This document shows, piece by piece, positions 12,805 through 27,574 of a DNA stretch of 64,000 bases. The DNA is taken from NCBI RefSeq assembly GCF_021018745.1, contig NZ_CP063845.1, positions 2,976,001 to 3,040,000 of the forward strand, written 5' to 3'. Every line of letters begins with the position of its first letter. Position 1 is the first letter of the stretch. This DNA is from Gloeobacter morelensis MG652769 (GTDB lineage: Bacteria > Cyanobacteriota > Cyanobacteriia > Gloeobacterales > Gloeobacteraceae). The notes under the pieces were generated by a model. That model saw nothing but the letters and a program-made list of their open reading frames with translations, made no database searches and had not been told where the DNA came from. Position numbers and translations under genes: made by a program.

Positions 12805-12993
12805 AGATTAATCTGTATCAAAAGTGACCAAGTTTGACTGACTTTGCGCGGAGCGGTTCTCCCCTTGCGTTTGCGGGAAACCAGTCATAGAGGCGTTTGC
12901 CTATGCGTGGGCAGTCCATACTTGATTGCCAGGATTGAGCGACATCCGTGCATACGGTATGAACTTTATGGTTCAATTTCCATTGAAGTCGCG

Positions 12994-15900
12994 GTGAGCT
13001 TTACTTTGCTACCCAATTTTGCTGCCCCAAGGTTCCGAACCACTGCCTTGCGTTTTCAGGCCATCGCCATGTCTCTGGCCGTCAGCCTGCCTTTGACGAC
13101 GTGCCCACTGTTGGCGGCAGAGCGCCTTGCTGTCGGTTTTCAAAAGAAAGTGCCGTTTGCCCAGACCCAAAATCCGCTGCGCTCCCCTGCCGCAGGAGCC
13201 GTGGTGCCCGCCGACTCTCAGGGGCGGGTGCGCGCGATCGTCCAGTTTGTCGAGAAACCGACGGTTCGGTTGCGCCCGGGCATCGACTTGCGTAGCGCCG
13301 AAGCTGGAGACTATGCCGAGCAACTGACCAGGCTGCGCGCTCCAAGGCTGGCGCAAATCGAGCGGCTCGGCGGCCGGGTGCAAAGTGTCCTGTCGAATGT
13401 CCTCAACGCCGCCGTCGTCGAGGTGGCCCAAGATCGTCTCTCCCAGATCCGGCGGTTGGCCGGGGTGAAATCGGTGCGCCCCGTCCGCCTCTACCGCCCC
13501 GATCAGAGCCCGCCCGGCAGCGTCGGCGAACTGATCGGCACCACGGCTTTGCAGCAGGCCGGGATCACCGGCGTAGGCGTGGTGATCGCCGTGATCGATT
13601 CGGGCGTTGATTATACCCACGCGGCCCTGGGCGGTACGGGCACCGTCGCCGCCTACCAAACGGCTGTGCGTGGTTCAGCCCCCCTCGTCGTCGGCGACGC
13701 GCCGGATTTTCCGAACGCCAAGGTAATCGGCGGTTTTGATTATCTGGGCGAGACCTGGACCGGTAATGCCGCCGATCCGGGCGGGCTCGCGGTCACCCCC
13801 GATCCGGACCCGGTCGACAACAAACAGACCGACACCGATTTTGCCGGTCACGGCACGGCGGTCTCTTCAGCCTCGGCGGGCCTGCCGCTGCCGGAAAGTG
13901 GGCTGGCAGGAGGAACCGCGCCGGGGGCCAAGGTGCTCGCCTACCGCGGTTGCAGCCGCATCAGCGCCAGCTGCGAAGGCAGCGCTTTGCTGAGCTCAAT
14001 CGAAGCGGCGGTTGCCTTCGATGTCTCCGATGCCTTCCCCGGCTATCCAAACCCGGTGCGCAAGGTGATCAACCTCTCGCTGGGGGCGGCCTTTTTCGAT
14101 CCGTCGGTGGACGATCTGTCGGAGGCGGTGCGCAATGCGGTCGAGGCAGGCGTGGTCGTCGTGGCCTCCGCCGGCAACAGCGGCGATCTTCCTTACGCCA
14201 CCGGCACCCCAGGATCGACGGAGACGGTGATCGGCGTGGCTGCGAGCCTGCCGCCGCTCAACATCGGACCGGGATTGGAAGTGCCTACCCTGGGCGTCAC
14301 CTACCAACTGGGCGTCGCCCAGTTCGGCCCGGCGCTGACCGAGCCTTTGACCACCACCTTCAAGCTCGCGGGCAGCGCGGAGATTAACCTCGCCTGCAGC
14401 AATCCGCCCAACCAGAATCCGCCCGCCCCCGCCGAGCCGCCGATTGCCGATCTGACCGGCAGCACCGGCATCGCCGATCGCGGCGATTGCGAATTTTCTG
14501 AAAAAGTCTACAACCTCCAGCAGGCAGGCGCACTCGCCGGGCTCATCGTCAACAACGCCCCGGGTGTGCTCACCATGGCCCCGGGGGCGGCGGCTTCGCT
14601 GGTGACCATTCCGTCCTTCATCGTAGATCAATCCCAGGGCAACGCACTCAAAGCCTCTGTAGCAGCTGATCCTGGCCTGACGGGCATCTTTTTGCCGCAG
14701 GTGTCGATTCCGAATACCAGCTTCGATCAGATCGCCGATTTTTCGTCGCGCGGCCCGAGCCCGGCGCTCAACCGGATCAAACCCGACATCACCGCTCCGA
14801 CTAACACCTTTGAAGCCAACATCGGCACCGGCGCTCTGGGAGCAGAATTTGGCGGGACTTCCAACTCCGCTCCAGTAACTTCCGGTGTCGCGGCGCTTGT
14901 GCTCTCCAAGCACCCCACTTATACCCCCAACCAGGTCAAAACCGCCCTGATGAATAGCGCCAATCCCCAGGTCTTTGCTGACAAGGCGGCGGGGACGGTG
15001 GTGCCGATCGCCCGCCAGGGGGCCGGGCGGGTGCAGGCGGACCGGGCGGCGAACTTAGAGACCCTCGCCTTCGACGCCGCCGATCCGGCCCAGCCCGCTT
15101 CGCTGTCGTTCGGCTACCGGGTCTTTCCCCAGCCTGAGACCCTGACGCGGACGGTTGCCGTTCAGAACCTGTCCGCCAGCGCCAAAACCTACAAGCTCGC
15201 GGTCCAACCGCGCTACCCCGAAGATGCGGGTAAAGGGGTGAGCTTCCAGGTGCCCGAGACGCTCAGTGTACCCGCAGGCCAGACGCGCACCTTCCCGGTG
15301 AGCATCAACGTGCAAAGCGATCTGTTGCCCGCAGGCGGCCTCGATGCGGGCCTCGGGGGCAACGATACCGCCGCCTTCAGCGCCTTCGAGCAGGACGGCT
15401 TCATCACCATCGACGGCGGCAGTGACAACACGGTCTCGCTACCGTATCTGTTGCTGCCGCGCAAGGGATCGGCGGTGGGGGCCAGTCGCCTTGCAGAATC
15501 TCAGGTGGCCCTGGACAATGCGGGCGTCGCGGCCACCACCGCCCAGGTCTTTAACCTCGTGGGCAGCGACCCGCTGGATCTGCCCGCTGCGGAGCAAGGC
15601 GAAAACCTGATCAATACCGACATCAAAGACGTGGGCGTGCGCTTCCTACCGGCTGCGGGCGACACCGCCGAGACGGTTGAATTTGCCGTCAGTCTGTATC
15701 GCCCTTTTACCAATCCGCGCAATTCGCCGGTGCAAATCGATGTCGATGTGACCGGCGACGGTGTTGCTGATTACTTCGTCTTCAACTACGACCTGGAACT
15801 GTTGAGCGGGGCTACCACCGGCCAGAATGTCACCTATATTTTGGAGGCGGCGACGGGGCTGCTGTTGGCGGATTTTTACACCCAGATCAACTACAACGCC

Positions 15901-16245
15901 AGCCAGCTGGTGCTGCCGGTTCTCGCTTCCTCGATCGGGGCGACCGCCCAGACCCGCCTGCAGTTGCGGGCGATCACCGGCTCGACGGCGCTGGGCTTTT
16001 TTGGGCTCACCGACACGGCGCCGGATGCGGGGCTGTACGCTTTTACGCCGGGTGCGCGGGTCACCGTTGCCGGGGCCACGGCGGTGTCGGTACCGGCGCT
16101 TGGCAGTGCGAATGTCGAATTTACCGTCAATCGCGCCAACGCCGGGGCTTCACCCTCGGATGCGGGGCTGCTTTTTGTGCTGCCGGACAATCCGCTGGGC
16201 TCCCAAAGCGCCACTGTGCGGACCGCCCGCGGGAGTCAGCCTTAA
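12994..16245 (+). CDS. Secreted subtilisin-like serine protease (S8) with PA domain insert
   Basis: The 1083-residue exported protease has a signal peptide (hydrophobic IAMSLAVSLPLTTCPLLAAE) and an I9-like propeptide (residues about 70-165). The S8 triad is clear: Asp in IAVIDSGVDYTHAAL, His in DFAGHGTAVSSASAG and Ser in GGTSNSAPVTSGVAAL. A protease-associated domain is inserted between His and Ser (TGIADRGDCEFSEKVYNLQQ). The C-terminal 400 residues are beta-rich Fn3-like modules (FGYRVFPQPETLTRTVAVQN). I chose the GTG at 12994; an ATG at 13069 just before the signal core is an alternative, and the frame stays open upstream to 12844. It is probably cell-surface or extracellular. Confidence 0.9.
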   Translation: MSFTLLPNFAAPRFRTTALRFQAIAMSLAVSLPLTTCPLLAAERLAVGFQKKVPFAQTQNPLRSPAAGAVVPADSQGRVRAIVQFVEKPTVRLRPGIDLRSAEAGDYAEQLTRLRAPRLAQIERLGGRVQSVLSNVLNAAVVEVAQDRLSQIRRLAGVKSVRPVRLYRPDQSPPGSVGELIGTTALQQAGITGVGVVIAVIDSGVDYTHAALGGTGTVAAYQTAVRGSAPLVVGDAPDFPNAKVIGGFDYLGETWTGNAADPGGLAVTPDPDPVDNKQTDTDFAGHGTAVSSASAGLPLPESGLAGGTAPGAKVLAYRGCSRISASCEGSALLSSIEAAVAFDVSDAFPGYPNPVRKVINLSLGAAFFDPSVDDLSEAVRNAVEAGVVVVASAGNSGDLPYATGTPGSTETVIGVAASLPPLNIGPGLEVPTLGVTYQLGVAQFGPALTEPLTTTFKLAGSAEINLACSNPPNQNPPAPAEPPIADLTGSTGIADRGDCEFSEKVYNLQQAGALAGLIVNNAPGVLTMAPGAAASLVTIPSFIVDQSQGNALKASVAADPGLTGIFLPQVSIPNTSFDQIADFSSRGPSPALNRIKPDITAPTNTFEANIGTGALGAEFGGTSNSAPVTSGVAALVLSKHPTYTPNQVKTALMNSANPQVFADKAAGTVVPIARQGAGRVQADRAANLETLAFDAADPAQPASLSFGYRVFPQPETLTRTVAVQNLSASAKTYKLAVQPRYPEDAGKGVSFQVPETLSVPAGQTRTFPVSINVQSDLLPAGGLDAGLGGNDTAAFSAFEQDGFITIDGGSDNTVSLPYLLLPRKGSAVGASRLAESQVALDNAGVAATTAQVFNLVGSDPLDLPAAEQGENLINTDIKDVGVRFLPAAGDTAETVEFAVSLYRPFTNPRNSPVQIDVDVTGDGVADYFVFNYDLELLSGATTGQNVTYILEAATGLLLADFYTQINYNASQLVLPVLASSIGATAQTRLQLRAITGSTALGFFGLTDTAPDAGLYAFTPGARVTVAGATAVSVPALGSANVEFTVNRANAGASPSDAGLLFVLPDNPLGSQSATVRTARGSQP

Positions 16246-16676
16246 AGGCTGCCGATTCCTTCTACAGGCAGAAAATGTCGAGCCGTCGCAATCGGCGTAG
16301 GCGGCGATCGCGACGGCTCTGGCGTAGCAGCGGCCGTGCACACCCAACAGACCGATCACCGACTGGACAATCGCCAGGATGGTGCGCTTGCGCCCGACCG
16401 CTCCAGCGCAACCTGCAGGCCAGCTGCTCGACCAGGGCGCGGGTCTGCTCGGCCGTTTGCACCTGCGCCTTCGCCAGGTCACCGGCGTCGAAGGGCATAC
16501 TTCAGCTTCGAGAATTTCTGCGGGCACTATCGGCAGAGCCCAAGCCAATATGGGTGGCTTGAGAGCTTTAGACCTTGCAGGGAGGTGAAACCCTGCTCGG
16601 TTCCCGCAAAGCAAGGGATTACAAGGCTTTGTGTTAGAGCTGATTCGTAAAGTTGTTAAGCAGTTGTCAGCGTAGG
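16246..16676. other. Intergenic region, possibly decayed sequence
   Basis: There is no supported gene in this gap between the subtilase and the IS5 remnant. On the minus strand, 16262-16498 encodes a short frame (MPFDAGDLAKAQVQTAEQTR) that appears to continue in another frame (KRTILAIVQSVIGLLGVHGR). That pattern fits a frameshifted remnant of an unrecognised gene. The end of the IS5 remnant probably lies near 16640. Confidence 0.35.
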
Positions 16677-17046
16677 CTAAGCAGCGGTCAATCTTCGCAG
16701 GACCAGCCGAATATTTGCCAGATAGATCATCGACTCACTGCTCTCCGCCCACTGCTCGTAGTCTTTACTTAAACGCCTTTCGTGCAGCAACCATCCGCAG
16801 GTGCGTTCGATAATCCAACGCTTGAACTGGGGCAAAAATCCCTTGCGTTTCGGCTCAGGCTGGCTCACTTCCACCTCCCAACCACACACATTTTTGACCG
16901 CTTCCCCGATCGGACCTGTGTAACCTTGATCCACCAGGATCTTCTTCAGGCGCGGCAGTCTGCCCTTCATGCTCATGGCCAGAGCAGCTAACCCTTGCCG
17001 GTCGCCTGAGTTCGCCGCTGCCACGAACTGGAATGGATCCCTTGGC
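16677..17046 (-). pseudogene. IS5-family transposase, C-terminal fragment
   Basis: The frame reads DPFQFVAAANSGDRQGL, then VDQGYTGPIGEAVKNVCGWE and RTCGWLLHERRLSKDYE, ending YLANIRLVLRRL. This is the C-terminal part of an IS5-family DDE transposase, with the final E-region WIIERTCGWLLHERRL. The N-terminal two thirds are missing. The frame is cut exactly at the inverted repeat of the IS3 element at 17047. The missing part is not found beyond the IS3 element, so the insertion came with loss of flanking DNA. Confidence 0.85.
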
Positions 17047-17058
17047 TGAGACAGGTAG

Positions 17059-17925
17059 TTAAGCAGGGTCTGGCATAGTCAACCTCTGCTCGAACTCAGC
17101 GGGAGGCAGATATCCGATGGATGAGTGCAGTCTTTTCTGATTGTACACCTCCTCCAGAAAATCACCTATCCGATTTCGTGCCTCCGTCATGTTCTCGTAT
17201 TCAAACATGTAGACTTCCTCATACTTCAAGGTCTTCATGAAACTCTCTGCTTTCGCATTGTCGTACGGATTTGCTCGACGACTCATGCTGATTTGAATGC
17301 CTCTTTCTTTCAATATGTCTGTGTACTCTTTCGAGGCATACTGCACACCACGGTCCGAGTGATGCACCAATTCTGACCCGAATGAGCGCGAGGTAATCGC
17401 CATTCTTAAAGCCAGAACTGCCAACCCAGCATCCAGAAATCTTTCCAATGACCATCCAATCACTCGGCGACTGAAGGCATCCAGAATCACCGCCAAGTAC
17501 ACAAACTCGCCTGACAAACGAATGTACGTCAGATCCGCCACCCACAACTGGTCGATTCCGCTCAACTGCAGGCCCGCAGCCAGGTTTGGGTAAACGCTCA
17601 AACCATGCTCCGAATCCGTCGTTTTTACAAACTTCTGCTTGCGCAAGCACAGCAGGTTATCCTCTCGCATCAGTCGTTGCACCCGCTTGCGGTTGACAGT
17701 CAACCCCTGACGTTGCAATTCGAATCTGATGCGACCAGAGCCGTAACTTGGCCACTCCAGAGCAATGGCTTGAATCCGAACGCGCACCTCCATATCGCTG
17801 TCGCTTTTGTGCACAGCACCTTTGCACCGATAGTATTCGGCTCGACTCAAACCCAACGTCCGACACGCTTGGGCAATGGAAAGCTCGGCCCCGGCGTCCG
17901 ACTCTTCCGCCACCAGTTGCAGCAT
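17059..17925 (-). CDS. IS3-family transposase OrfB (integrase catalytic subunit)
   Basis: This 288-residue DDE integrase has an N-terminal HTH_21 region (ACRTLGLSRAEYYRCKGAV; YGSGRIRFELQRQGLTVNRK). The rve core carries Asp in LWVADLTYIRLSGEF, Asp in LVHHSDRGVQYASKEY and Glu in NAKAESFMKTLKYEEV. It ends with LEEVYNQKRLHSSIGYLPP. It cuts and joins the element ends. Its ATG shares one base with the orfA stop (TAATG), so coupling rather than a long -1 overlap seems likely. It appears intact and potentially active. Confidence 0.95.
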   Translation of the reverse strand: MLQLVAEESDAGAELSIAQACRTLGLSRAEYYRCKGAVHKSDSDMEVRVRIQAIALEWPSYGSGRIRFELQRQGLTVNRKRVQRLMREDNLLCLRKQKFVKTTDSEHGLSVYPNLAAGLQLSGIDQLWVADLTYIRLSGEFVYLAVILDAFSRRVIGWSLERFLDAGLAVLALRMAITSRSFGSELVHHSDRGVQYASKEYTDILKERGIQISMSRRANPYDNAKAESFMKTLKYEEVYMFEYENMTEARNRIGDFLEEVYNQKRLHSSIGYLPPAEFEQRLTMPDPA

Positions 17926-18242
17926 TATTTGCTGCCATCCGGCCGCGTCGGTCGGCTTCTGCTCTCGAGCCGCGTCAAGGCCTTTTTTAAAAGGACGTTC
18001 TCCATGGTCAACTGGCCGACCATCCGTTCCAACTCGGCAACCCGGGCCTCTTGCTGATAGGGACGACCATTACCCGAGAAGGCCTTATCCGCGTACTTGG
18101 CGAGTTGTTGGCGCCATTTGGTAATCAGCGTCGGATGGATTTGGTGCTCGCGGGCCACCACGGCCACACTCTGGCCGGCTTCGATCTGGGCAAGGATGTG
18201 GAGTTTGAGCTCGCGAGAGAAGCGCCGTCTGGGCAGGGACAT
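17925..18242 (-). CDS. IS3-family transposase OrfA
   Basis: This 105-residue protein carries the HTH_8/IS3-IS911 OrfA helix-turn-helix (RRFSRELKLHILAQIEAG; VVAREHQIHPTLITKWRQQL). A leucine-zipper-like coiled coil follows (ARVAELERMVGQLTMENVLL) and serves dimerisation. It binds the element ends and works with OrfB. Confidence 0.93.
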   Translation of the reverse strand: MSLPRRRFSRELKLHILAQIEAGQSVAVVAREHQIHPTLITKWRQQLAKYADKAFSGNGRPYQQEARVAELERMVGQLTMENVLLKKALTRLESRSRPTRPDGSK

Positions 18243-18296
18243 GGAATTTTGCTCCTGTGCTTAGTGGAGCTTAACTCTCTGTCTCAAATTACGGGT

Positions 18297-18560
18297 CCAG
18301 TCCAGCTGGTCCCTCCCGCCAGCCTACATACGGGCGAAGCACACCAACGCCAAGAACGACGACGGCAGGTGTTAGCGGCGGCCTATGCCGAGCATCCGGA
18401 CCGCTTCGTGCGCAAAGCCCCCGTAGCTTGCTTCCCCGCAGGGGTGCCGCCAGCCCTGCCGACGGCGGTGTGGATCAATCCGCCGCAACCAAGTAGTACA
18501 GCTTCTTCTGGGGATACTCAGGAGAAAAGCTCTGTGCCAGATTCAGAAAGTCGTCTCTAA
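18297..18560 (+). pseudogene. C-terminal remnant of another IS3-type integrase
   Basis: The plus-strand frame after the IS3 border reads PASLHTGEAHQRQERRRQVL, then AAYAEHPDRFVRKAP and PPALPTAVWINPP. This is the characteristic tail of a different IS3-family integrase group. A short insertion lies between RKAP and PPALP, and no catalytic domain remains. It is a fragment left by the IS3 insertion or by earlier decay. Confidence 0.65.
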
Positions 18561-18750
18561 ACTATTGACACATTCCGGTCGGGTGAAGCTATGATAATTC
18601 CATTTACACAAATTTATTGACAGACTCCCGGGTTGTTGCCGGTGCCGGCATACCTATTGCAGGCGAGTTTGCTAGATGCCATACTGGTCTCGATTCGTGC
18701 GTACTGGCCATTGTGCTAAACCATATTCAATCCTATTTCAGAGTCATCCC

Positions 18751-19275
18751 ATGCTGGGCCGCAGAGCTTTCCTTTTAACCTTTCTAGTCTCGTGCGCGTT
18801 GCTTAAGGCTGCCCTCGAAAGGATTGTCGGCGCCGAAGCCTACGCTAAGGGAGTTACAGGTTCCGAAATACACTTCGACATCCATTCCGAGCCCGAAGCA
18901 GCGTGCGATTTCTGCTCCTCGATTCCGCAGGACGCCACAATGCTCGTGGCTACCCCTCCCGGTGGACAAGTGCGGATTTGGCGAGAAGACCCACCTTGGC
19001 AGGTGAACCCTACCAAGCCCGGTTGGGTGGTGCGCGACCACCTGAATATTTGTAGCAACTGTGTCCAGTCAGGCAGCGAGTTGGTGGCCAATATTGCTAC
19101 CGAAGGGCGTTTCATCCCGCAGAGCATCCCCCCGGAGCTGGCGGGTGTCAATGTTCTCTATTGTTCCTTTTGCGAGGCGACGCGGCTTGAGGTGATGCTG
19201 CTGGTGGCCGGTTCGGGTGGATCCGTCAATATTTGTGATGTTTGTTTGGGCCTTTGCAGCCGGGTACTGGCTTGA
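18751..19275 (+). CDS. Exported protein with ClpX-like C4 zinc fingers
   Basis: Starting at the ATG at 18751 gives 174 residues. The N-terminus MLGRRAFLLTFLVSCALLK resembles a twin-arginine signal (RRxFL plus a hydrophobic core), with AEAYA as a possible cleavage site. The C-terminal part LYCSFCEATRLEVMLLVAGS followed by VNICDVCLGLC has the spacing and residues of the ClpX zinc-binding domain (CSFCGKSQ...ICDECVELC). An earlier CDFC...ICSNC pair (about residues 51-113) looks like a second, diverged copy with a long insert. There is no AAA+ ATPase domain. An ATG at 18676 would add 25 residues. It is flanked by IS remnants. Function unknown. Confidence 0.72.
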   Translation: MLGRRAFLLTFLVSCALLKAALERIVGAEAYAKGVTGSEIHFDIHSEPEAACDFCSSIPQDATMLVATPPGGQVRIWREDPPWQVNPTKPGWVVRDHLNICSNCVQSGSELVANIATEGRFIPQSIPPELAGVNVLYCSFCEATRLEVMLLVAGSGGSVNICDVCLGLCSRVLA

Positions 19276-19956
19276 GTGTTGGTCCGAGAAGCGACTGCCC
19301 GTACCGCTGGCATTGCTGCACCAGCCCTCCTGCCTAGGCGGGTGAAGATCTCGATGCTTTTGACGTGGCCTTCTTCCGGCTTTCTTGGCTCAGCGAAAAT
19401 AGCCCTGACCGCGGCTTCGTAAGCCTCGGCAGTCTATGGCCTGCCGACCGAGCGTGATTTCCGGAAATTCGGGGCTCTAACGCTGTTCTGGTGATCCAGG
19501 CGCTGACCCGTCGCTCGCTTGGCAGTTACTAGAATCAAGGTATTTGAGGCGTACTGCCTTTGGTGGGCGAGCTACACTTTTGAGCACCCGCCCCAGAAAT
19601 GAGAGTAATGACGACCCATCATTCAGGCATTCAGGCTCACCAAAACGCGTACTTATCAACCGGCGGATTCTGCTAGTCGCTGCCACCCTGGACACGGTCC
19701 CAACCTACACTTTTCTCCGCAAACTCAGGGCAGCTGGAACAAACCAAGACCGTCGGCTGAGCGCTGTGCGCTGGATCAACCGTCAGGAGGAACTGGCTAA
19801 AGCCCTGAAAGCTGGCTCAATCTCCTATCTCGCCTGGCACGACGAGGTCAATACGGCTCTCCTGAGTGCATGGTGTATGCTGTATAGCAGCATACATTCT
19901 GCCGATGAGTATCGAACTGACGCAACTGCTCGGGCTACCCAACGTTTATGTCGGAG

Positions 19957-21297
19957 TCTGTACAGTAAATTGTGTAAGTGGTCTCAGCAAAGAAAGTACA
20001 ATACTCTCTCAGATAGGAGAAGCTGATGACTATCCGCAAAGAGATCCTTGACGAACTGCTCAAAGACTACGACGGCACCGACCCGCAGACCATCCTCGGT
20101 GAGAGCGGCCTGCTCAAGCAACTGACCAAGGCCGTCATTGAACGCGCGCTCGAAGCCGAGATGGAAACTCACCTCGGTTACAAGAAGCACGAAGCAGTCG
20201 GCAAAGGCACCGGCAACTCCCGAAACGGCAAAAGTCAGAAGACCCTCCAGGCCGAATGCGGTCCAGTCGAACTCCACATCCCCCGCGACCACAACGCCGA
20301 GTTCGAGCCGGTCGTTGTGCGCAAAGGCCAGACACGCTTGGCGGGACTGGATGAGAAGATTCTGGCGCTGTATGCGCGCGGAATGACGACCCGTGATATT
20401 CAAGCCCAACTGCAGGAGATGTACGGGGTCGAAGTATCACCAACGCTGATCTCGAATGTCACAGATGCGGTGATGGACGAGGTGCGTCAATGGCAGAATC
20501 GTCCGCTCGAAACCGTCTACCCGATTGCTTATTTTGACTGCCTGCAGGTGAAGGTACGCGACAACGGTCGGGTGGTGAATAAAGCCGTCTACCTGGCTCT
20601 GGGTGTAGACCTGGAGGGCCAGAAAGAGCTTCTGGGTATTTGGGGGTCGTTGCCCCAACGACCCTGGCTTTCGGCCCATGAGGGTGCAAAGTTTTGGTTA
20701 GGAATACTGACGGAACTGAACAACCGTGGCCTGAAAGATATCTTGATTGCCTGTGTGGACGGCTTGACCGGGTTGCCGACAGCGATTGAGTCGATGTACC
20801 CGGGTTGCTTGGTGCAGTTGTGCATGGTACATATGGTGCGCGATTCGTGCAAATATGTGTCATGGAAAGACCGCAAAGCCTTGTGCGTAGACCTGCGCGC
20901 TGTCTACAGTGCAGCGACTGAAGAAGAGGCAGAGTTGCATCTGGAATTACTGTGCGAGAAGTGGGGCAAACAATATCCGAGCGTGGGTCGGATGTGGCGG
21001 GAGAACTGGGTACGGGTGATCCCAATATTCCGGTTTGGCGAGGACATCCGAAAGGTAATCTACACGACGAATGCGATAGAATCACTGAACATGACGATCC
21101 GCAAAGTCAGTCGTAACCGTCGGATCATGCCGAATGACGAGTCGGTGATAAAGATGGTGTATTTGGCAATTCAAAACCAGATGAAGAAGTGGACGATGCC
21201 GATTCGGGCCTGGCGTCCTGCCTTGAACCGGCTGATGATTGAGTTCGAAGGAAGGCTAAAAGTATGACAAAATCACTTACACAAAATAATTGACAGA
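19957..21297 (+). mobile_element. IS256-family element
   Basis: The ends are inverted: TCTGTACAGTAAATTGTGTA at 19957 and, on the complement from 21297, TCTGTCAATTATTTTGTGTA, both followed by AGTG. It carries one transposase gene. No 8-bp target duplication is seen at its borders. This fits an insertion accompanied by deletion of the ISL3 interior. Confidence 0.85.
20026..21267 (+). CDS. IS256-family transposase
   Basis: The 413-residue protein is a full-length IS256/mutator-type DDE transposase. It opens LTKAVIERALEAEMETHLGY, shows GNSRNGKSQKTL and DEKILALYARGMTTRDIQAQ. The catalytic Asp lies in YPIAYFDCLQVKVRDNG, with GIWGSLPQRPWLSAHEGAKF following. The second Asp lies in ILIACVDGLTGLPTAIESMY, with CMVHMVRDS after it, and the Glu is in YTTNAIESLNMTIRKVSRNR. 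It appears intact. Confidence 0.96.
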   Translation: MTIRKEILDELLKDYDGTDPQTILGESGLLKQLTKAVIERALEAEMETHLGYKKHEAVGKGTGNSRNGKSQKTLQAECGPVELHIPRDHNAEFEPVVVRKGQTRLAGLDEKILALYARGMTTRDIQAQLQEMYGVEVSPTLISNVTDAVMDEVRQWQNRPLETVYPIAYFDCLQVKVRDNGRVVNKAVYLALGVDLEGQKELLGIWGSLPQRPWLSAHEGAKFWLGILTELNNRGLKDILIACVDGLTGLPTAIESMYPGCLVQLCMVHMVRDSCKYVSWKDRKALCVDLRAVYSAATEEEAELHLELLCEKWGKQYPSVGRMWRENWVRVIPIFRFGEDIRKVIYTTNAIESLNMTIRKVSRNRRIMPNDESVIKMVYLAIQNQMKKWTMPIRAWRPALNRLMIEFEGRLKV

Positions 21298-21576
21298 TCC
21301 CATCAAGTTAATCAAACGCCAGGGCTACGGCTTTACAAACTTTGAGAACCTGCGCTTGCGGCTGCTCGCTGGCTTTGCCAAGAAGGGCTGCTGCTCACCT
21401 TGAACTCAGGAGAGCCGTCAATACGATGGCCCGGGAAGTCGATATCTCCCAACTTTTGGCGGAGACCAGTCGGGCTCGGGGAAGCCCTCGCATCCCCTTC
21501 ATGCGTGATCCCGTCAAGCGCAGTATCACCTTCGGCGATACCGACAGTAAAAAGTTTACTGGGAGATGACTAATTT

Positions 21577-21670
21577 TCAGCAGATCTCCGCCACGTCGAT
21601 GACACTTGCCGCCCGCTGCAAAGCAAAGGCAATCTGCTGCTCAGTGAAGTTGGACTTGCGCGCTTGAGTC
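21577..21670 (-). pseudogene. IS3-type OrfA, N-terminal remnant
   Basis: The minus strand reads RKSNFTEQQIAFALQRA then SVIDVAEIC and a TGA. This matches the first about 28 residues of the widespread IS3 OrfA (RKSKFTEEQIAFALRQAE...VAEVCRK). Nothing else of that element remains nearby. Confidence 0.65.
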
Positions 21671-21815
21671 CTCTAGACTAGGAAAAGTATACTGTGTAGG
21701 TTTTTCCCGGTTTCCCCTGATCTAGTTTTACGGGTCAAGACCAAGTATTCGGAGCAGTCTGGGGATTTCCGAATTATTGCCCGGGTTGCAGGTTGGTGCT
21801 AGCACAGACAAATTT

Positions 21816-21845
21816 TTGTTAGACTTACGAGATCTGTGCTACAAT
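21816..21845 (+). promoter_or_regulatory. Probable sigma-70 promoter of the interrupted exported protein
   Basis: TTGTTA at 21816-21821 and TACAAT at 21840-21845 are separated by 18 bp. They lie 26 bp before the GTG start at 21871. This is the best promoter match in the region. Confidence 0.5.
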
Positions 21846-21972
21846 TTAGCGTCTATCCAGAGATAATACTGTGGCTACAAAAAATGTGATCGCGTCCGGC
21901 GTGCTGTCTCTAACTGTCGCGGCACAGATGTGTTTTATCTCTCCTGCTTTGGCCCAAAGCATAACTTTTAAC

Positions 21973-23203
21973 GGCTCTCCTGAGTCCATGGTGTATGCTG
22001 TATAGCACCATACATTCTGCCAATGAGTATCGAACTGACGCAACTGCTCGGGCTACCCAACGTTTATGTCGAACGGCAGTCCATCGATGAACGGGGCATT
22101 ATCTTCTATCTCAAGCCGCTTGCTCCAGGTATACTCTGCGGCGGTTGCGGCCAGTTTACCGACCGCGAACATCAAGCACGTCCCCTGCACATCCGAGACT
22201 TGAAAATACGTAAAATGCCCGTATTTTTGCACATTCCTCGAAGACAATTTTACTGCCAAACCTGCGAACGCTACTGTACCGAACAACTGGATTTCGTCGA
22301 TTGGCGACGGCGACACACCCGCCGTTTCGAGCAGGATATCTACGAGCGGGTACCCGCCTCAAGTCTCGAACAGATTGCGCGCGAAGAAGGCATCAGTCCA
22401 GACGAAGTACGAGGCATGTTCGAGCATGTGGCCAGGCAGTTAAAAAAAAGACTGGGGCCCCGTCAAGCGCATCAGCATCGATGAGTTTAGTGGGCGGCGC
22501 GGCCACGATTTTAAAACGGTACTTTGCGATATCGAGACTGGCGAATTGCTGGAGGTCATCGATAGTCACAAACAAAAAGAGATCATTGAAAGCCTTTGCC
22601 TGCAAGCGCTTGAGGTGCGCGAAGCTATTGAAGAAGTGAGCATCGACATGTGGGGAGGTTTTCGAAAGGTTGTCCAGGAAGCCTTTCCCAATGCTGTGAT
22701 TGTCTACGACCGGTTTCACGTGATGCGGATGGTGAACGAAGAGGTCAAGAAGATTGCTCGCCAATGTGGCTTGGGCAAGCGCAAGGAGCAATTTTTGCTC
22801 CTAAAGAATGGAGTGGACTTGAATGCCGGGCAGAAAGTTCAGCTAGAAACCTATCTGCAGATCGACAAACGTTTACGCAAAGCGTATGAATACAAAGAGG
22901 AATTTCGGTGGATTTATGAGAGGAGTCAGAGTGTAGATGAAGGTCAGCAGAAGTTGGAAGACTGGCTTTTGAAAGCCCGCAAGGTATATGGGAAGGTGGT
23001 GCAGACCATTACAGAACATTTCGAGGGGGTCTGCAACTATTTTATCCGTCGGTCGAGTAGTGGAGTGATGGAGGGCATCAACAACCGCATCAAGTTAATC
23101 AAACGCCAGGGCTACGGCTTTACAAACTTTGAGAACCTGCGCTTGCGGCTGCTCGCTGGCTTTGCCAAGAAGGGATGCTGCTCACCTTGAACTCAGGAGA
23201 GCC
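21973..23203 (+). mobile_element. ISL3-family insertion sequence, full length
   Basis: Terminal inverted repeats are GGCTCTCCTGAGTCCATGGT on the left and the complement of the sequence ending at 23203 (GGCTCTCCTGAGTTCAAGGT). The flanks have a perfect 8-bp duplication, CTTTTAAC (21965-21972 and 23204-23211), as expected for ISL3. One transposase gene is present, split by a frameshift at an A8 run. Confidence 0.93.
22023..23190 (+). CDS. ISL3-family transposase, two frames joined at an A8 run
   Basis: The first frame (22023-22484) encodes the N-terminal zinc-ribbon (CGGCGQ...FYCQTCERYC) and HTH (ASSLEQIAREEGISPDEVRG). It reaches ARQLKKR at the run of eight A (22442-22449) and then goes astray. 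Moving one base forward gives KKDWGPVKRISIDEFSGRRG, which runs to the stop at 23190. The DDE residues lie in this second part: ISIDEFSGRRGHDF, AVIVYDRFHVMRMVNEEV and GVMEGINNRIKLIKRQGYGF. Either transcriptional slippage on the A8 run joins them or this copy is dead. The total would be about 388 residues, normal for ISL3. Confidence 0.85.
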
Positions 23204-23701
23204 CTTTTAACTTTGGGGCACTGATTCCGAGTAACTTAGTCGCTAATGACTGGTATCTCAGTGCAAGAGATCTTGAGAAGCGAGTTTTCGATGTCGACGA
23301 AAATCAAACGAACAATGGAACCCTTACGGGTTATGGACTCAGTGTTAGTAGCGCTAATTTTTCACCATTGCCCTCGCCGCTTTCAAATATTGATAATTTT
23401 AGTTTTTACACTCAATATCGTGTCAGAAATTATGAATTGTTTGCTGCCCAAGTAGAAAATGGTGGATTTCCTCTTCAAGGCTTCTTGCCACAACCGAATC
23501 CAAACGCCCAGTTTGGAGTCTTCTTCGGACGGAACTTCGGCACCATTTTTACAGGCAGTGCATTTCCTTACAAATTCATTGCGCGTTACAGACAGTCAAG
23601 AAACACGCATACAAAGAAATCTGCGTCCCAAATTGATAATTCTTCCAAGATTGATCCTTTTTATTTTAGAGTTTCCACTGGTAACTGGGCTGCATGTCCC
23701 A

Positions 23702-26203
23702 ATGAAAATCAGTCTTTACACTCCCATAGTTACCCTTGCCGCTCAGACTGTTTCCAACACCTATCCTCTCTTTGGAGATTTTGAGAGAGATTCGGTAACC
23801 GATCCCACATATTTCGACAAAGCCAGTGGCAATTGGAGTTCTTACTTATCCCTCGTCGGCCAGACGGTCAATTTGGGAGCATTCGGCAGCCCCAGTAGAG
23901 GTGATGTGCCTGCCGTCGAGGACTTCGATGCTGACGGGATCGCAGAGCGCATGATTTTCCGCGGCGGTACCGGAGATTGGTTCGCAATTTACAGCTCACT
24001 GCTATTCAACTCGGGCAGAGTCATCCGTGTTCCCAGCAGTGGCAACCTCCACACGGTTTTACCCACGGGGAGCGGCACCCTCGCCTGGACATACCGCTCA
24101 TCTTCCTCCACCGCCGCCTGGAGCCCCCCTGCCTACTTCGGCTCCGGTGTCACCGGCAACCCCGCCTTGATCCGGCTAGCCTACGACAGTTCTTTGAGAG
24201 CCGTGTACCGCAATACCTCCGGTGGCCTCACCGAGTACAAGCTGCCGGCTGGCGGTTCCGGATGGCAAAAAGTCGCCGACTTCGGTTCGGGGATCGTTGG
24301 CAATCCGTCCCTGGTCGAGACCGTGGGCGGCAACATGTGGGTGGTCGCCCCCAACAGCTCCGGCGGCCTGAGCGCCTACAGCAAGGTTTACAACACCTCC
24401 TGGGGACTTTTCTCCAATTTCGGCTCGAACGTTTTCGGCACCCCCGCGCTCATCCGGCTCGCCTTCGACGGTTCGCTCCAAGTCGTGGTGCCCAACGGCG
24501 ACGGCCTCGCGCACTACCAACTGCCCCCGTACGGCAGCTGGCAAAAAATCGCCGACTTCGGTTCGGGCGTGCTCAGCAATCCGACGCTGCTTGAAACGGT
24601 CAACGGCAACATGTGGGCACTGGTCGGCAACAGCTCGGGTGGCCTGACCGCCTTCAGCAGGGTCTACGGCACCACCTGGGGCGCAACCAGCTTCGGCTCG
24701 GGCCTCACCGGCACCCCGGCCTTCGCCAAAAGAACCAGCGACGGCGCCTTGGAGGCAATAGCGATCAAGCAGACCGGCGGCCTAGTCGAGTACCGCCTGC
24801 TGCCCGGCGGCACCGCCTGGACCAAGCAGGCCGACTTCGCCACCAGCGTCACCGGCAACCCGCTGCTCATCGACACCACCGGTGGCAACCTCTCGGTCAT
24901 CGCCCCGGGCGTCTCCGGGGGCCTGGCCCACTACGGCCGCGGCGCTTCGACCGGCTGGAGCGGTGCGGTCGCCTCCGCGTCGATGCCCGGACGGGGGGCC
25001 TCTTTGGGGGCTTTTCCCGCCGCCGGTTTCGTCGGGCGGCCCATCCCGGCGGACTACGACGGCGACGGCCGAGCCGACCGCGCCGCCTTCGGTGCCAGCT
25101 CCTACACCTACCAGATCAAGCAAAGCTCCGACGGCGCCACCCGCACCTACGGGCCTTTCTTCACCAGTTCCGGCGGCACAATGGTCTTCGAGTTGCCCGG
25201 CGACTACGACGGTGACGGCAAGGTGGACCCGGCGGCGGTCAACGCCTCGACCTACAGCGGCTGCCCCTTCTCCCCGGACGGGCTCTACACGAACTTCGAT
25301 ATCGTCTTTCGCTCCTCCGCCAACGGCGGCACCAACCTGCAGACGAGTGTCGTCGCCTACGGCGGGCCGCCGATAAACAATTACCTGTTCCCGGCCGTGG
25401 GCGATTTCGACGGCGACGGCAAGTCCGACCCGGCCTACTTTTTCCCGGCTTTCAACGTCACCTACTACGTCTCCAGTCTCAACCAGACGGTGGTGGAGAG
25501 CGGCCCGGGCTGCGGCTACGGCTACGACACCGTCAACAATTTCACCAACGCCGGCATCAACTTCTCCATCTCGCCCATCCTCATCGACACCAAAGGCGAC
25601 GGCTTCGCGCTCACCTCCGCCGATGGGGGCGTCCTTTTCGACCTGCAGGGCCGCGGCGGCATCGCCAAAAACGCCTGGACCGAGACCGGCTCCGACGACG
25701 CCTTTTTGGTGCTCGATCGCGACGAGAACGGCACCATCGACGACGGTAGGGAGCTATTTGGCAACCACACCGCCCAGCCCGCCAGCGTCAACCCCAACGG
25801 CTTTTTGGCCCTCGCCGAGTTCGACAAACCCGCCCACGGCGGCAACGGCGACGGGGCAATCTCCGCCGAGGACACGGTTTTCAGCTTGCTGCTGCTGTGG
25901 ACCGACCGCAACCACAACGGAATTTCGGAGCCGGAAGAGTTGAAACCATACTCCGACTCCGGCCCGACCGCTATCTCATTGACGATGTGGCCCACCAAGG
26001 TCGCAGATGCCCACGGCAACTGGTTTCGGTGGGTGAGCAGGCTGGAGGGGGCCGCGGCCCTCGGCATGGGTAGCAAGGTCGTCGACGTCATCTTTGCCAC
26101 CGAGAAACGCCCGGACGCCCGCCCGTTACCGACGGGCACCAAAGGAGAACCCCGCACCGGTGAAACACCCACCGGCACCACAGACGATATTTATTGTTTT
26201 TGA
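23702..26203 (+). CDS. Intact downstream portion of the propeller/VCBS/EF-hand protein
   Basis: From the ATG at 23702 the frame is open for 833 residues. FG-GAP/VCBS-like segments come first (GDFERDSVTDPTYFDKASGN; VEDFDADGIAERMIFRGGTG). Six related propeller-type blocks follow (see the repeat at 24131-24963). Three further VCBS units carry Ca-binding loops: ADYDGDGRADRAAF, GDYDGDGKVDPAAV and GDFDGDGKSDPAYF. The last 180 residues hold EF-hand-like loops: LDRDENGTIDDGRELFG, GNGDGAISAEDTVF and DRNHNGISEPEEL. It lacks its own signal peptide, because that lies before the ISL3 element. The frame is open from a GTG at 23459, but the translation before 23702 is not protein-like. It probably was a Ca-dependent surface or secreted lectin-like protein. 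Confidence 0.75.
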   Translation: MKISLYTPIVTLAAQTVSNTYPLFGDFERDSVTDPTYFDKASGNWSSYLSLVGQTVNLGAFGSPSRGDVPAVEDFDADGIAERMIFRGGTGDWFAIYSSLLFNSGRVIRVPSSGNLHTVLPTGSGTLAWTYRSSSSTAAWSPPAYFGSGVTGNPALIRLAYDSSLRAVYRNTSGGLTEYKLPAGGSGWQKVADFGSGIVGNPSLVETVGGNMWVVAPNSSGGLSAYSKVYNTSWGLFSNFGSNVFGTPALIRLAFDGSLQVVVPNGDGLAHYQLPPYGSWQKIADFGSGVLSNPTLLETVNGNMWALVGNSSGGLTAFSRVYGTTWGATSFGSGLTGTPAFAKRTSDGALEAIAIKQTGGLVEYRLLPGGTAWTKQADFATSVTGNPLLIDTTGGNLSVIAPGVSGGLAHYGRGASTGWSGAVASASMPGRGASLGAFPAAGFVGRPIPADYDGDGRADRAAFGASSYTYQIKQSSDGATRTYGPFFTSSGGTMVFELPGDYDGDGKVDPAAVNASTYSGCPFSPDGLYTNFDIVFRSSANGGTNLQTSVVAYGGPPINNYLFPAVGDFDGDGKSDPAYFFPAFNVTYYVSSLNQTVVESGPGCGYGYDTVNNFTNAGINFSISPILIDTKGDGFALTSADGGVLFDLQGRGGIAKNAWTETGSDDAFLVLDRDENGTIDDGRELFGNHTAQPASVNPNGFLALAEFDKPAHGGNGDGAISAEDTVFSLLLLWTDRNHNGISEPEELKPYSDSGPTAISLTMWPTKVADAHGNWFRWVSRLEGAAALGMGSKVVDVIFATEKRPDARPLPTGTKGEPRTGETPTGTTDDIYCF
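24131..24963 (+). repeat. Six tandem about 46-residue propeller-type repeats, alternating A and B types
   Basis: Each unit begins with an aromatic-FGSG-like motif (AYFGSGVTGNP, ADFGSGIVGNP, SNFGSNVFGTP, ADFGSGVLSNP, TSFGSGLTGTP, ADFATSVTGNP). Units 1, 3 and 5 continue with ALIRLA.D.SL-like text, and units 2, 4 and 6 with LVET..GNMWVV-like text, so the duplicated block was a pair. The pattern resembles PLL/tachylectin-type beta-propeller blades. Confidence 0.75.
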
Positions 26204-26231
26204 GTCTTGGGCAGGGTGCGGCCCGGGTGGA

Positions 26232-26262
26232 CAGTCCGAGTTCGTTAGAGAACTCGGGACTG
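26232..26262 (+). terminator. Hairpin downstream of the VCBS/EF-hand gene
   Basis: CAGTCCGAGTTC and GAACTCGGGACTG pair around a 6-base loop (GTTAGA), with one bulge, 29 bp after the stop. No T run follows, so rho-independent termination is uncertain. The rest of the gap to 26494 shows nothing recognisable. Confidence 0.45.
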
Positions 26263-26494
26263 CCGACTTCTACCGCTTGCCGGGCTGATCCAGTGCCTGC
26301 ACGACCGGAGCGACGAGCACAACCTGCAGCTTCGCATTCACCCGCACCCGCCTGAGGGTGAAGAGCGTTTTGCGTAGTCGTGAGTGCCCGGCCTGAGCAA
26401 CCGCACAGCTTTCTGGGAGGGAATGCTTCGGTCTTGGCCAGGCCCTCGGAACGTTGAATGAGTGGATAAAATTCTTCCAGACAATACACCTGCA

Positions 26495-27574
26495 CTACGC
26501 AGAGACCTTCGCTGCAATCGCCTCGGCCATCTGGCGGGTGCCTACGGGCGTGGATCCCGCCGGGGCCAGGTCGTAGGTAACACTTTGGCCCTCGGCGATC
26601 ACGTCGGCGACGGCCTGCTCGACGCGCACGGCGGCCTCCTGCTCGCCCAGGTGCCGAAGCAACAGCGCGCCGCTCAAGATGAGTGCCGAGGGATTGACCT
26701 TGTTCTGACCGGCGTAGCGCGGGGCCGAGCCGTGGATCGCTTCGAAGACGGCGTAGCGATCGCCGATATTGGCCCCCGGCGCCACCCCAAGGCCACCCAC
26801 CAGCCCGGCGGTCAGATCGGAGACGATATCGCCGTAGAGGTTGGGCAGCACCAGGACATCGAACAGTTCCGGCTTCTGGACCAGTTGCATGCACAGATTG
26901 TCGACGATCCGATCTTCAAACTCGACATCCGGATACTCCGAGGCTACCTGGCGGGCCGCTTCCAGAAACAGACCGTCGGTGTGCTTCAAGATATTCGCCT
27001 TGTGCACGGCGGTGACTTTACGGCGGGCGTTGCGGCGGGCGTACTCGAAGGCGAAGCGGGCGATCCGCTCGCTCGCCTCGCTGGAGATCGGTTTGACCGC
27101 AAGGCCGGATCTTGGAAAGATTTTTTTGCCGCCCAGGCGCACGAGCATCTCGATTACTTCAAGAGCCTGGGGAGAATTTTTTTCAAATTCGATGCCGCTG
27201 TAGAGGTCCTCGGTATTTTCACGCACGACCACCAGGTCGATATTGTCGTAGCGCGAGTGCACCCCGGGCAGGGTGCGGGCCGGGCGCAGGTTGGCGTACA
27301 AGTCGAGGGCCCGACGCAAGGCGACGTTGACCGAACGGATGCCCGCACCTGTGGGGGGGGTGATCGGGCCTTTGATGGCGGCGTCGCTCGCGCGCACCGC
27401 TTCGATCACTGGGGCCGGAAGGGGTGTGCCGGACTTCTCCATCACCTCGGCGCCGGCATCGACCACAACCCACTCAAAGTCGATTCCGGTGGCATCGAGC
27501 ACGATCCGGGCTGCCTGCGTCACTTCCGGGCCGATCCCATCGCCGCGGATCAGTGTGACACGATATGGGGACAC
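26495..27574 (-). CDS. NAD-dependent isocitrate dehydrogenase type (IDH/IMDH family)
   Basis: The 359-residue protein belongs to the beta-decarboxylating dehydrogenases: [14 protein letters not shown], the substrate loop [34 protein letters not shown] and [19 protein letters not shown]. The nucleotide end is [32 protein letters not shown] and the short length match NAD-linked isocitrate dehydrogenases (eukaryotic IDH3/Thermus-like) better than 3-isopropylmalate dehydrogenase or homoisocitrate enzymes. It would convert isocitrate to 2-oxoglutarate. Most cyanobacteria use a longer NADP enzyme. It is divergent from the tocopherol operon. Confidence 0.85.

Follow-up and report, generated by a model that had tools for sequence, protein, structure and literature searches.

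The analyzed window, a 64,000-nucleotide stretch of the Gloeobacter morelensis MG652769 genome, contains a gene for a small protein with two ClpX-type zinc fingers and a predicted N-terminal twin-arginine (Tat) signal (Table 1). The source genome is 5.10 Mb in size, and its nearest relatives are Gloeobacter and Gloeobacteraceae. Translation from the ATG at 18751 to the stop codon at 19273-19275 gives 174 amino acids. The longest frame has 75 additional nucleotides at its 5' end (start at 18676, 199 amino acids); this start was ruled out, as homology was found only from the 18751 ATG onward. In both homologues described below, the frames were closed immediately 5' of MSSRR.../MPMVSRR..., and DNA similarity to the truncated homologue began 7 nucleotides 5' of 18751. 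A promoter scan upstream of the gene found none; a TTGACA-N19-TATGAT arrangement lies near 18564-18594, with a spacing beyond the limit of that scan.

Table 1. Features of the double-finger gene and its surroundings in the window
Feature	Coordinates	Strand	Details and basis
Gene for 174-amino-acid, predicted exported double ClpX-type zinc finger protein	18751..19275	+	Stop codon included; ORF, Pfam, homologues
Predicted twin-arginine signal	18751..18840	+	Residues 1-30, MLGRRAFLLTFLVSCALLKAALERIVGAEA; kept in two homologues; background control
Finger 1, expanded hairpin, ~27 residues more than ClpX	18892..19101	+	Residues 48-117; C52/C55 and C101/C104; profile comparison
Finger 2, canonical ClpX-type zinc finger	19150..19272	+	Residues 134-174; C138/C141 and C162/C165; Pfam and PDB profile matches
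Species-specific island holding the gene, ~10.3 kb	16231..26490	.	Flanks contiguous in two congeners; junctions read
Transposase remnant (DDE_Tnp_1_2; 16677-17024) and IS3-type element, upstream of the gene	16677..18290	-	
Split ISL3-family element, downstream of the gene, with IS256/Mutator-type transposase inside (20026-21267)	19853..21416	+	

The original prediction of a ClpX-type zinc finger without an ATPase domain was borne out by profile searches. Pfam zf-C4_ClpX (PF06689) matched the whole protein at 56.8 bits (E = 2e-15) and finger 2 alone (residues 137-173) at 46.2 bits (E = 4e-12), both exceeding the curated threshold of 27 bits, and the best PDB matches of a two-sequence profile were ClpX N-domain structures (2ds5, E = 1.6e-9). 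Finger 2 aligned over its full length with the ClpX N-terminal zinc-binding domain (ZBD; PDB 1ovx, 2ds5), with a C4 spacing two residues longer. PF06689 was the sole Pfam family matched by the 174-amino-acid protein: no AAA+ ATPase domain was detected after the finger, the chain stops one residue past finger 2, and no thioredoxin-like or metal-chaperone family was matched. Unlike ClpX, an AAA+ unfoldase with an ATPase domain, this protein combines two fingers per chain with a predicted N-terminal export signal. The source genome had one further above-cut-off zf-C4_ClpX match, in a 480-amino-acid, ClpX-sized frame that was taken as the genuine ClpX.

The more N-terminal cysteines had been described as a diverged pair of the same kind; their relatedness to ClpX held, but what they form proved to be more than a diverged pair, namely a finger with an expanded hairpin. 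Finger 1 has the cysteine spacing C-x2-C-x45-C-x2-C, and Pfam run on it alone gave no zf-C4_ClpX match. When compared by hhalign with a profile of 34 cyanobacterial ClpX-type fingers, however, a two-sequence finger 1 profile scored 30.5; among 100 column shuffles in which the cysteines stayed in place, the highest score was 14.7. In the full-length homologue (G390), both halves of the finger aligned to the 34-finger profile as half-matches. Given these half-alignments and the shuffle-beating score, we regard finger 1 as a ClpX-type finger with ~27 extra hairpin residues; its alignment to the ClpX ZBD spans 40 columns, and its likeness to ClpX is lower in the window protein than in G390. ClpX-specific non-cysteine residues are retained in both fingers, among them the F...I/L/V hydrophobic positions of the ClpX ZBD. 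That domain is dimeric and serves as the hotspot where substrates and adaptors bind; its hydrophobic patch includes F16 and I46 (PMC7804408). The alignment puts these residues at F54/L111 in finger 1 and F140/V172 in finger 2. A tblastn search of plasmids with finger 1 alone returned ten matches, none significant, among them several ClpX fingers and one sigma factor. Two other assignments were rejected: a CxxCH in the G390 protein as a heme c motif (the window and truncated proteins have CDFCS/CDFCN) and a Fer4 match in G390 (E = 0.15), put down to cysteine spacing.

The Tat-type signal, which the 18751 start does leave in place, was kept in the homologues. Like that of the window protein, their N-termini, MSSRRTFLFAFLASCALLHTALERIAAAEA and MPMVSRRAFLLTFLASCTLLIVALESSVSVEA, have RRxFL followed by a hydrophobic core and by A-x-A or a similar site, so that the signal is common to three genera (SRRTFL in the full-length and SRRAFL in the truncated homologue); in the window protein, the first motif residue is G, not S/T. 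A-x-A lies at residues 28-30, and signal peptidase I might cleave after A-E-A. Two of the three members have Arg24 within the c-region, where a charged residue fits Tat more than Sec. A filter combining RRx[FLIVM][LIVMF], a hydrophobic core, and A-x-A was applied to 8203 distinct N-termini (in-frame N-termini of ORFs of at least 60 amino acids from the window and fetched loci), and only the three family members passed; one other N-terminus did so apart from A-x-A. RRxFL, a moderate hydrophobic core, a charged c-region, and A-x-A are shared with Tat-exported cofactor-binding proteins, and the source genome encodes TatC (E = 5.4e-63). A literature search found no known Tat substrate bearing ClpX-type fingers. 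Both the membership of the protein in the family of ClpX-type fingers and its Tat-type signal are well supported.

A search for relatives with the same two-finger layout found homologues in two other Gloeobacteraceae genera: G390, the one full-length homologue found in all, and G389, whose copy ends early, after about residue 73. The former is 47% identical to the window protein by BLAST and 50% by MAFFT and keeps 10 of 10 cysteines, the feature on which the zinc finger assignment had been staked beforehand. The closest homologue outside the source genome is on contig JACMIX010000421.1 of Gloeobacterales cyanobacterium ES-bin-141. Three other Gloeobacter and three further Gloeobacterales genomes yielded the ClpX match or chance-level matches only. 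No homologue was found in a 386-genome sample of the phylum, where the matches were nearly all ClpX-sized frames and the rest weak, nor in a scan of 84,980 genomes that relied on short patterns from two sequences and can miss remote members. Likewise, no relatives were detected in a single-sequence scan of genome contigs or a profile scan of viral contigs, and plasmid and phage collections gave partial matches only, mainly to ClpX fingers. Within these searches, the double-finger protein was confined to a few cyanobacteria that lack thylakoids. Between the window gene and the full-length homologue, dN was 0.35 and dS 1.55 (dS being near saturation, dN/dS is rough), and changes were in excess at third positions (52/41/85); together, these patterns of substitution indicate purifying selection on the protein across the divergence of the genera.

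Two neighboring genes of the homologues were also recorded. A transposase-like integrase lies near the truncated G389 copy (L054, 455-2887, minus strand), fused within a single frame to a TniB-like ATPase part as judged by eye. In ES-bin-141, a free-standing 152-amino-acid Clp_N-domain protein (L037, 522-980, minus strand) is encoded divergently from the double-finger homologue. The Clp_N protein does not lie beside the window gene, its nearest relative in the source genome being ~1.9 Mb off, and a link between the two was rejected because the neighborhood is not common to the window gene.

As anticipated from the insertion sequence (IS) remnants around it, the gene lies inside an IS-rich island. 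In two congeners (G386 and G387), DNA up to 16230 joins DNA from ~26490-26505, with 19-112 bp between, and these contiguous flanks define the ~10.3 kb as an island. The left flank is 93.6% identical to G387 versus 90.3% to G386; for the right flank, the picture is mixed. Should G386 be the outgroup, a single gain would be a more parsimonious explanation than two losses. The suggested recent arrival is thus supported for the locus in this species, with its empty site in two congeners, but not for the family: homologues in two other genera, the full-length one at ~50% identity, make it older. The IS3-type element comprises an integrase-core ORF (17059-17925) and an OrfA-like ORF (17925-18242), and the ends of the split ISL3 element are 97-99% identical to a second ISL3 copy at 21971-23203. 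The left junction alters the last residues of a subtilase-like gene (12844-16245). The island also holds a large FG-GAP repeat protein (23459-26203) that is probably surface-located or secreted.

ClpX-type fingers are reused outside ClpX in other cyanobacterial proteins. Seven non-ClpX frames with such a finger, drawn from 135 genomes of the class, were typed by eye: in four, ECF-type sigma factors, the finger is C-terminal; in two, AAA ATPases, it is N-terminal; and the last, a 157-amino-acid protein, has it at the C-terminus, behind an N-terminal MORN-like part. Some of the sigma factors and ATPases share a lengthened finger hairpin (e.g., CGKSNQQVGSLIAGPLLGDVRIYICNEC); they differ from the window protein in that a single finger is fused to sigma or ATPase domains and no export signal was seen. 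None of the seven had two fingers or an export signal. A ClpX finger fused to a sigma factor is already in the literature (PMC11119718). The claim that a zinc-binding module at work outside the cytosol, separate from the Clp protease, would be new therefore has to be narrowed: ClpX-type fingers outside ClpX were known before, and the novelty lies in two of them placed behind a predicted export signal.

Our preferred reading, which we advance tentatively, is that the Tat pathway exports this tandem of ClpX-type fingers to the periplasm, where it would bind peptides or proteins, the two fingers probably pairing within one molecule as a pseudodimer; the steps that we infer are zinc loading, export by Tat, packing into a pseudodimer, and binding of peptides or other ligands. 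The protein would most likely fold around zinc in the cytosol, before export, and the Tat pathway would then most likely carry it folded to the periplasm. Gloeobacter lacks thylakoids, and therefore no lumen competes with the periplasm as the destination. In the mature part, a single chain would carry both zinc-binding domains of ClpX type, probably packed on each other with the hydrophobic patch kept; through this patch, the protein would capture hydrophobic peptide tails or bind partner proteins, as an adaptor, a holdase-like protein, or an assembly factor. AlphaFold2 models on two-sequence alignments in both orders had a pLDDT of 40, low because of too few homologues, and count neither for nor against a pseudodimer.

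The N-terminus might instead remain uncleaved, so that the hydrophobic helix, or a lipid on Cys15, anchors the fingers at the outside of the cytoplasmic membrane; there they would tether or recruit a partner located in the membrane or the periplasm. Identity to the full-length homologue was higher in the signal (20/30) than in the mature part (61/132), which is unusual for a cleaved signal and may point to a retained anchor. Residues 12-15 form a lipobox-like LVSC, of which the L-x-S-C pattern (LVSC/LASC) and Cys15 are invariant in all three homologues, and the hydrophobic stretch runs beyond Cys15. Against lipidation, the core ahead of the lipobox is short, with some six residues, and R5 does not fit the classical lipoprotein pattern; against any uncleaved anchor, the A-x-A site follows. 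On balance, we consider such an anchor rather unlikely.

It is improbable that the cysteines, instead of serving protein binding, handle redox or metals in the periplasm (as a disulfide relay or zinc/copper buffer). The four CxxC pairs and the oxidizing compartment would suit such a role, and a protein folded before its export could be loaded with metal, yet the conservation of ClpX-specific non-cysteine residues, hydrophobic patch included, and the lack of any match to a thioredoxin-like or metal-chaperone family speak against it. Decidedly improbable is a cytosolic ClpX adaptor or decoy, in which the helix would act as an anchor and inward-facing fingers would control ClpXP by pairing with the genuine ClpX at its ZBD or with ClpX adaptors: ClpX ZBDs dimerize, which makes heterodimers conceivable, and a Clp_N protein is encoded next to the G390 relative, but this neighbor is absent beside the window gene, and the order of twin-arginine motif, hydrophobic core, and A-x-A fits an export signal. 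Decay of a functionless cargo gene of the IS island, to which the empty sites in two congeners, the truncated G389 copy, and the weaker finger 1 of the window protein could point, is very improbable given 174 open codons, the full set of cysteines, and the dN well below dS with its third-position excess, although pairwise values are blind to decay begun after the gene's arrival here.

If the preferred reading of an exported, peptide-binding tandem holds, a more specific role is possible, and we put it forward with greater reserve: that of an ATP-independent peptide-binding adaptor or holdase, in which a ClpX-type substrate-binding module, in tandem and Tat-exported, works in the periplasm of early-branching cyanobacteria. 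ClpX zinc domains are known from the cytosol, where they serve an ATP-driven protease as grasping modules; a tandem version that is exported, if true, would mean that the module can work without an ATPase or protease. In the periplasm, cysteine-zinc sites are vulnerable to oxidation, a risk that would account for export by Tat. As a compact natural candidate for a pseudodimer, the double-finger protein would lend itself to testing what the ClpX finger does alone.
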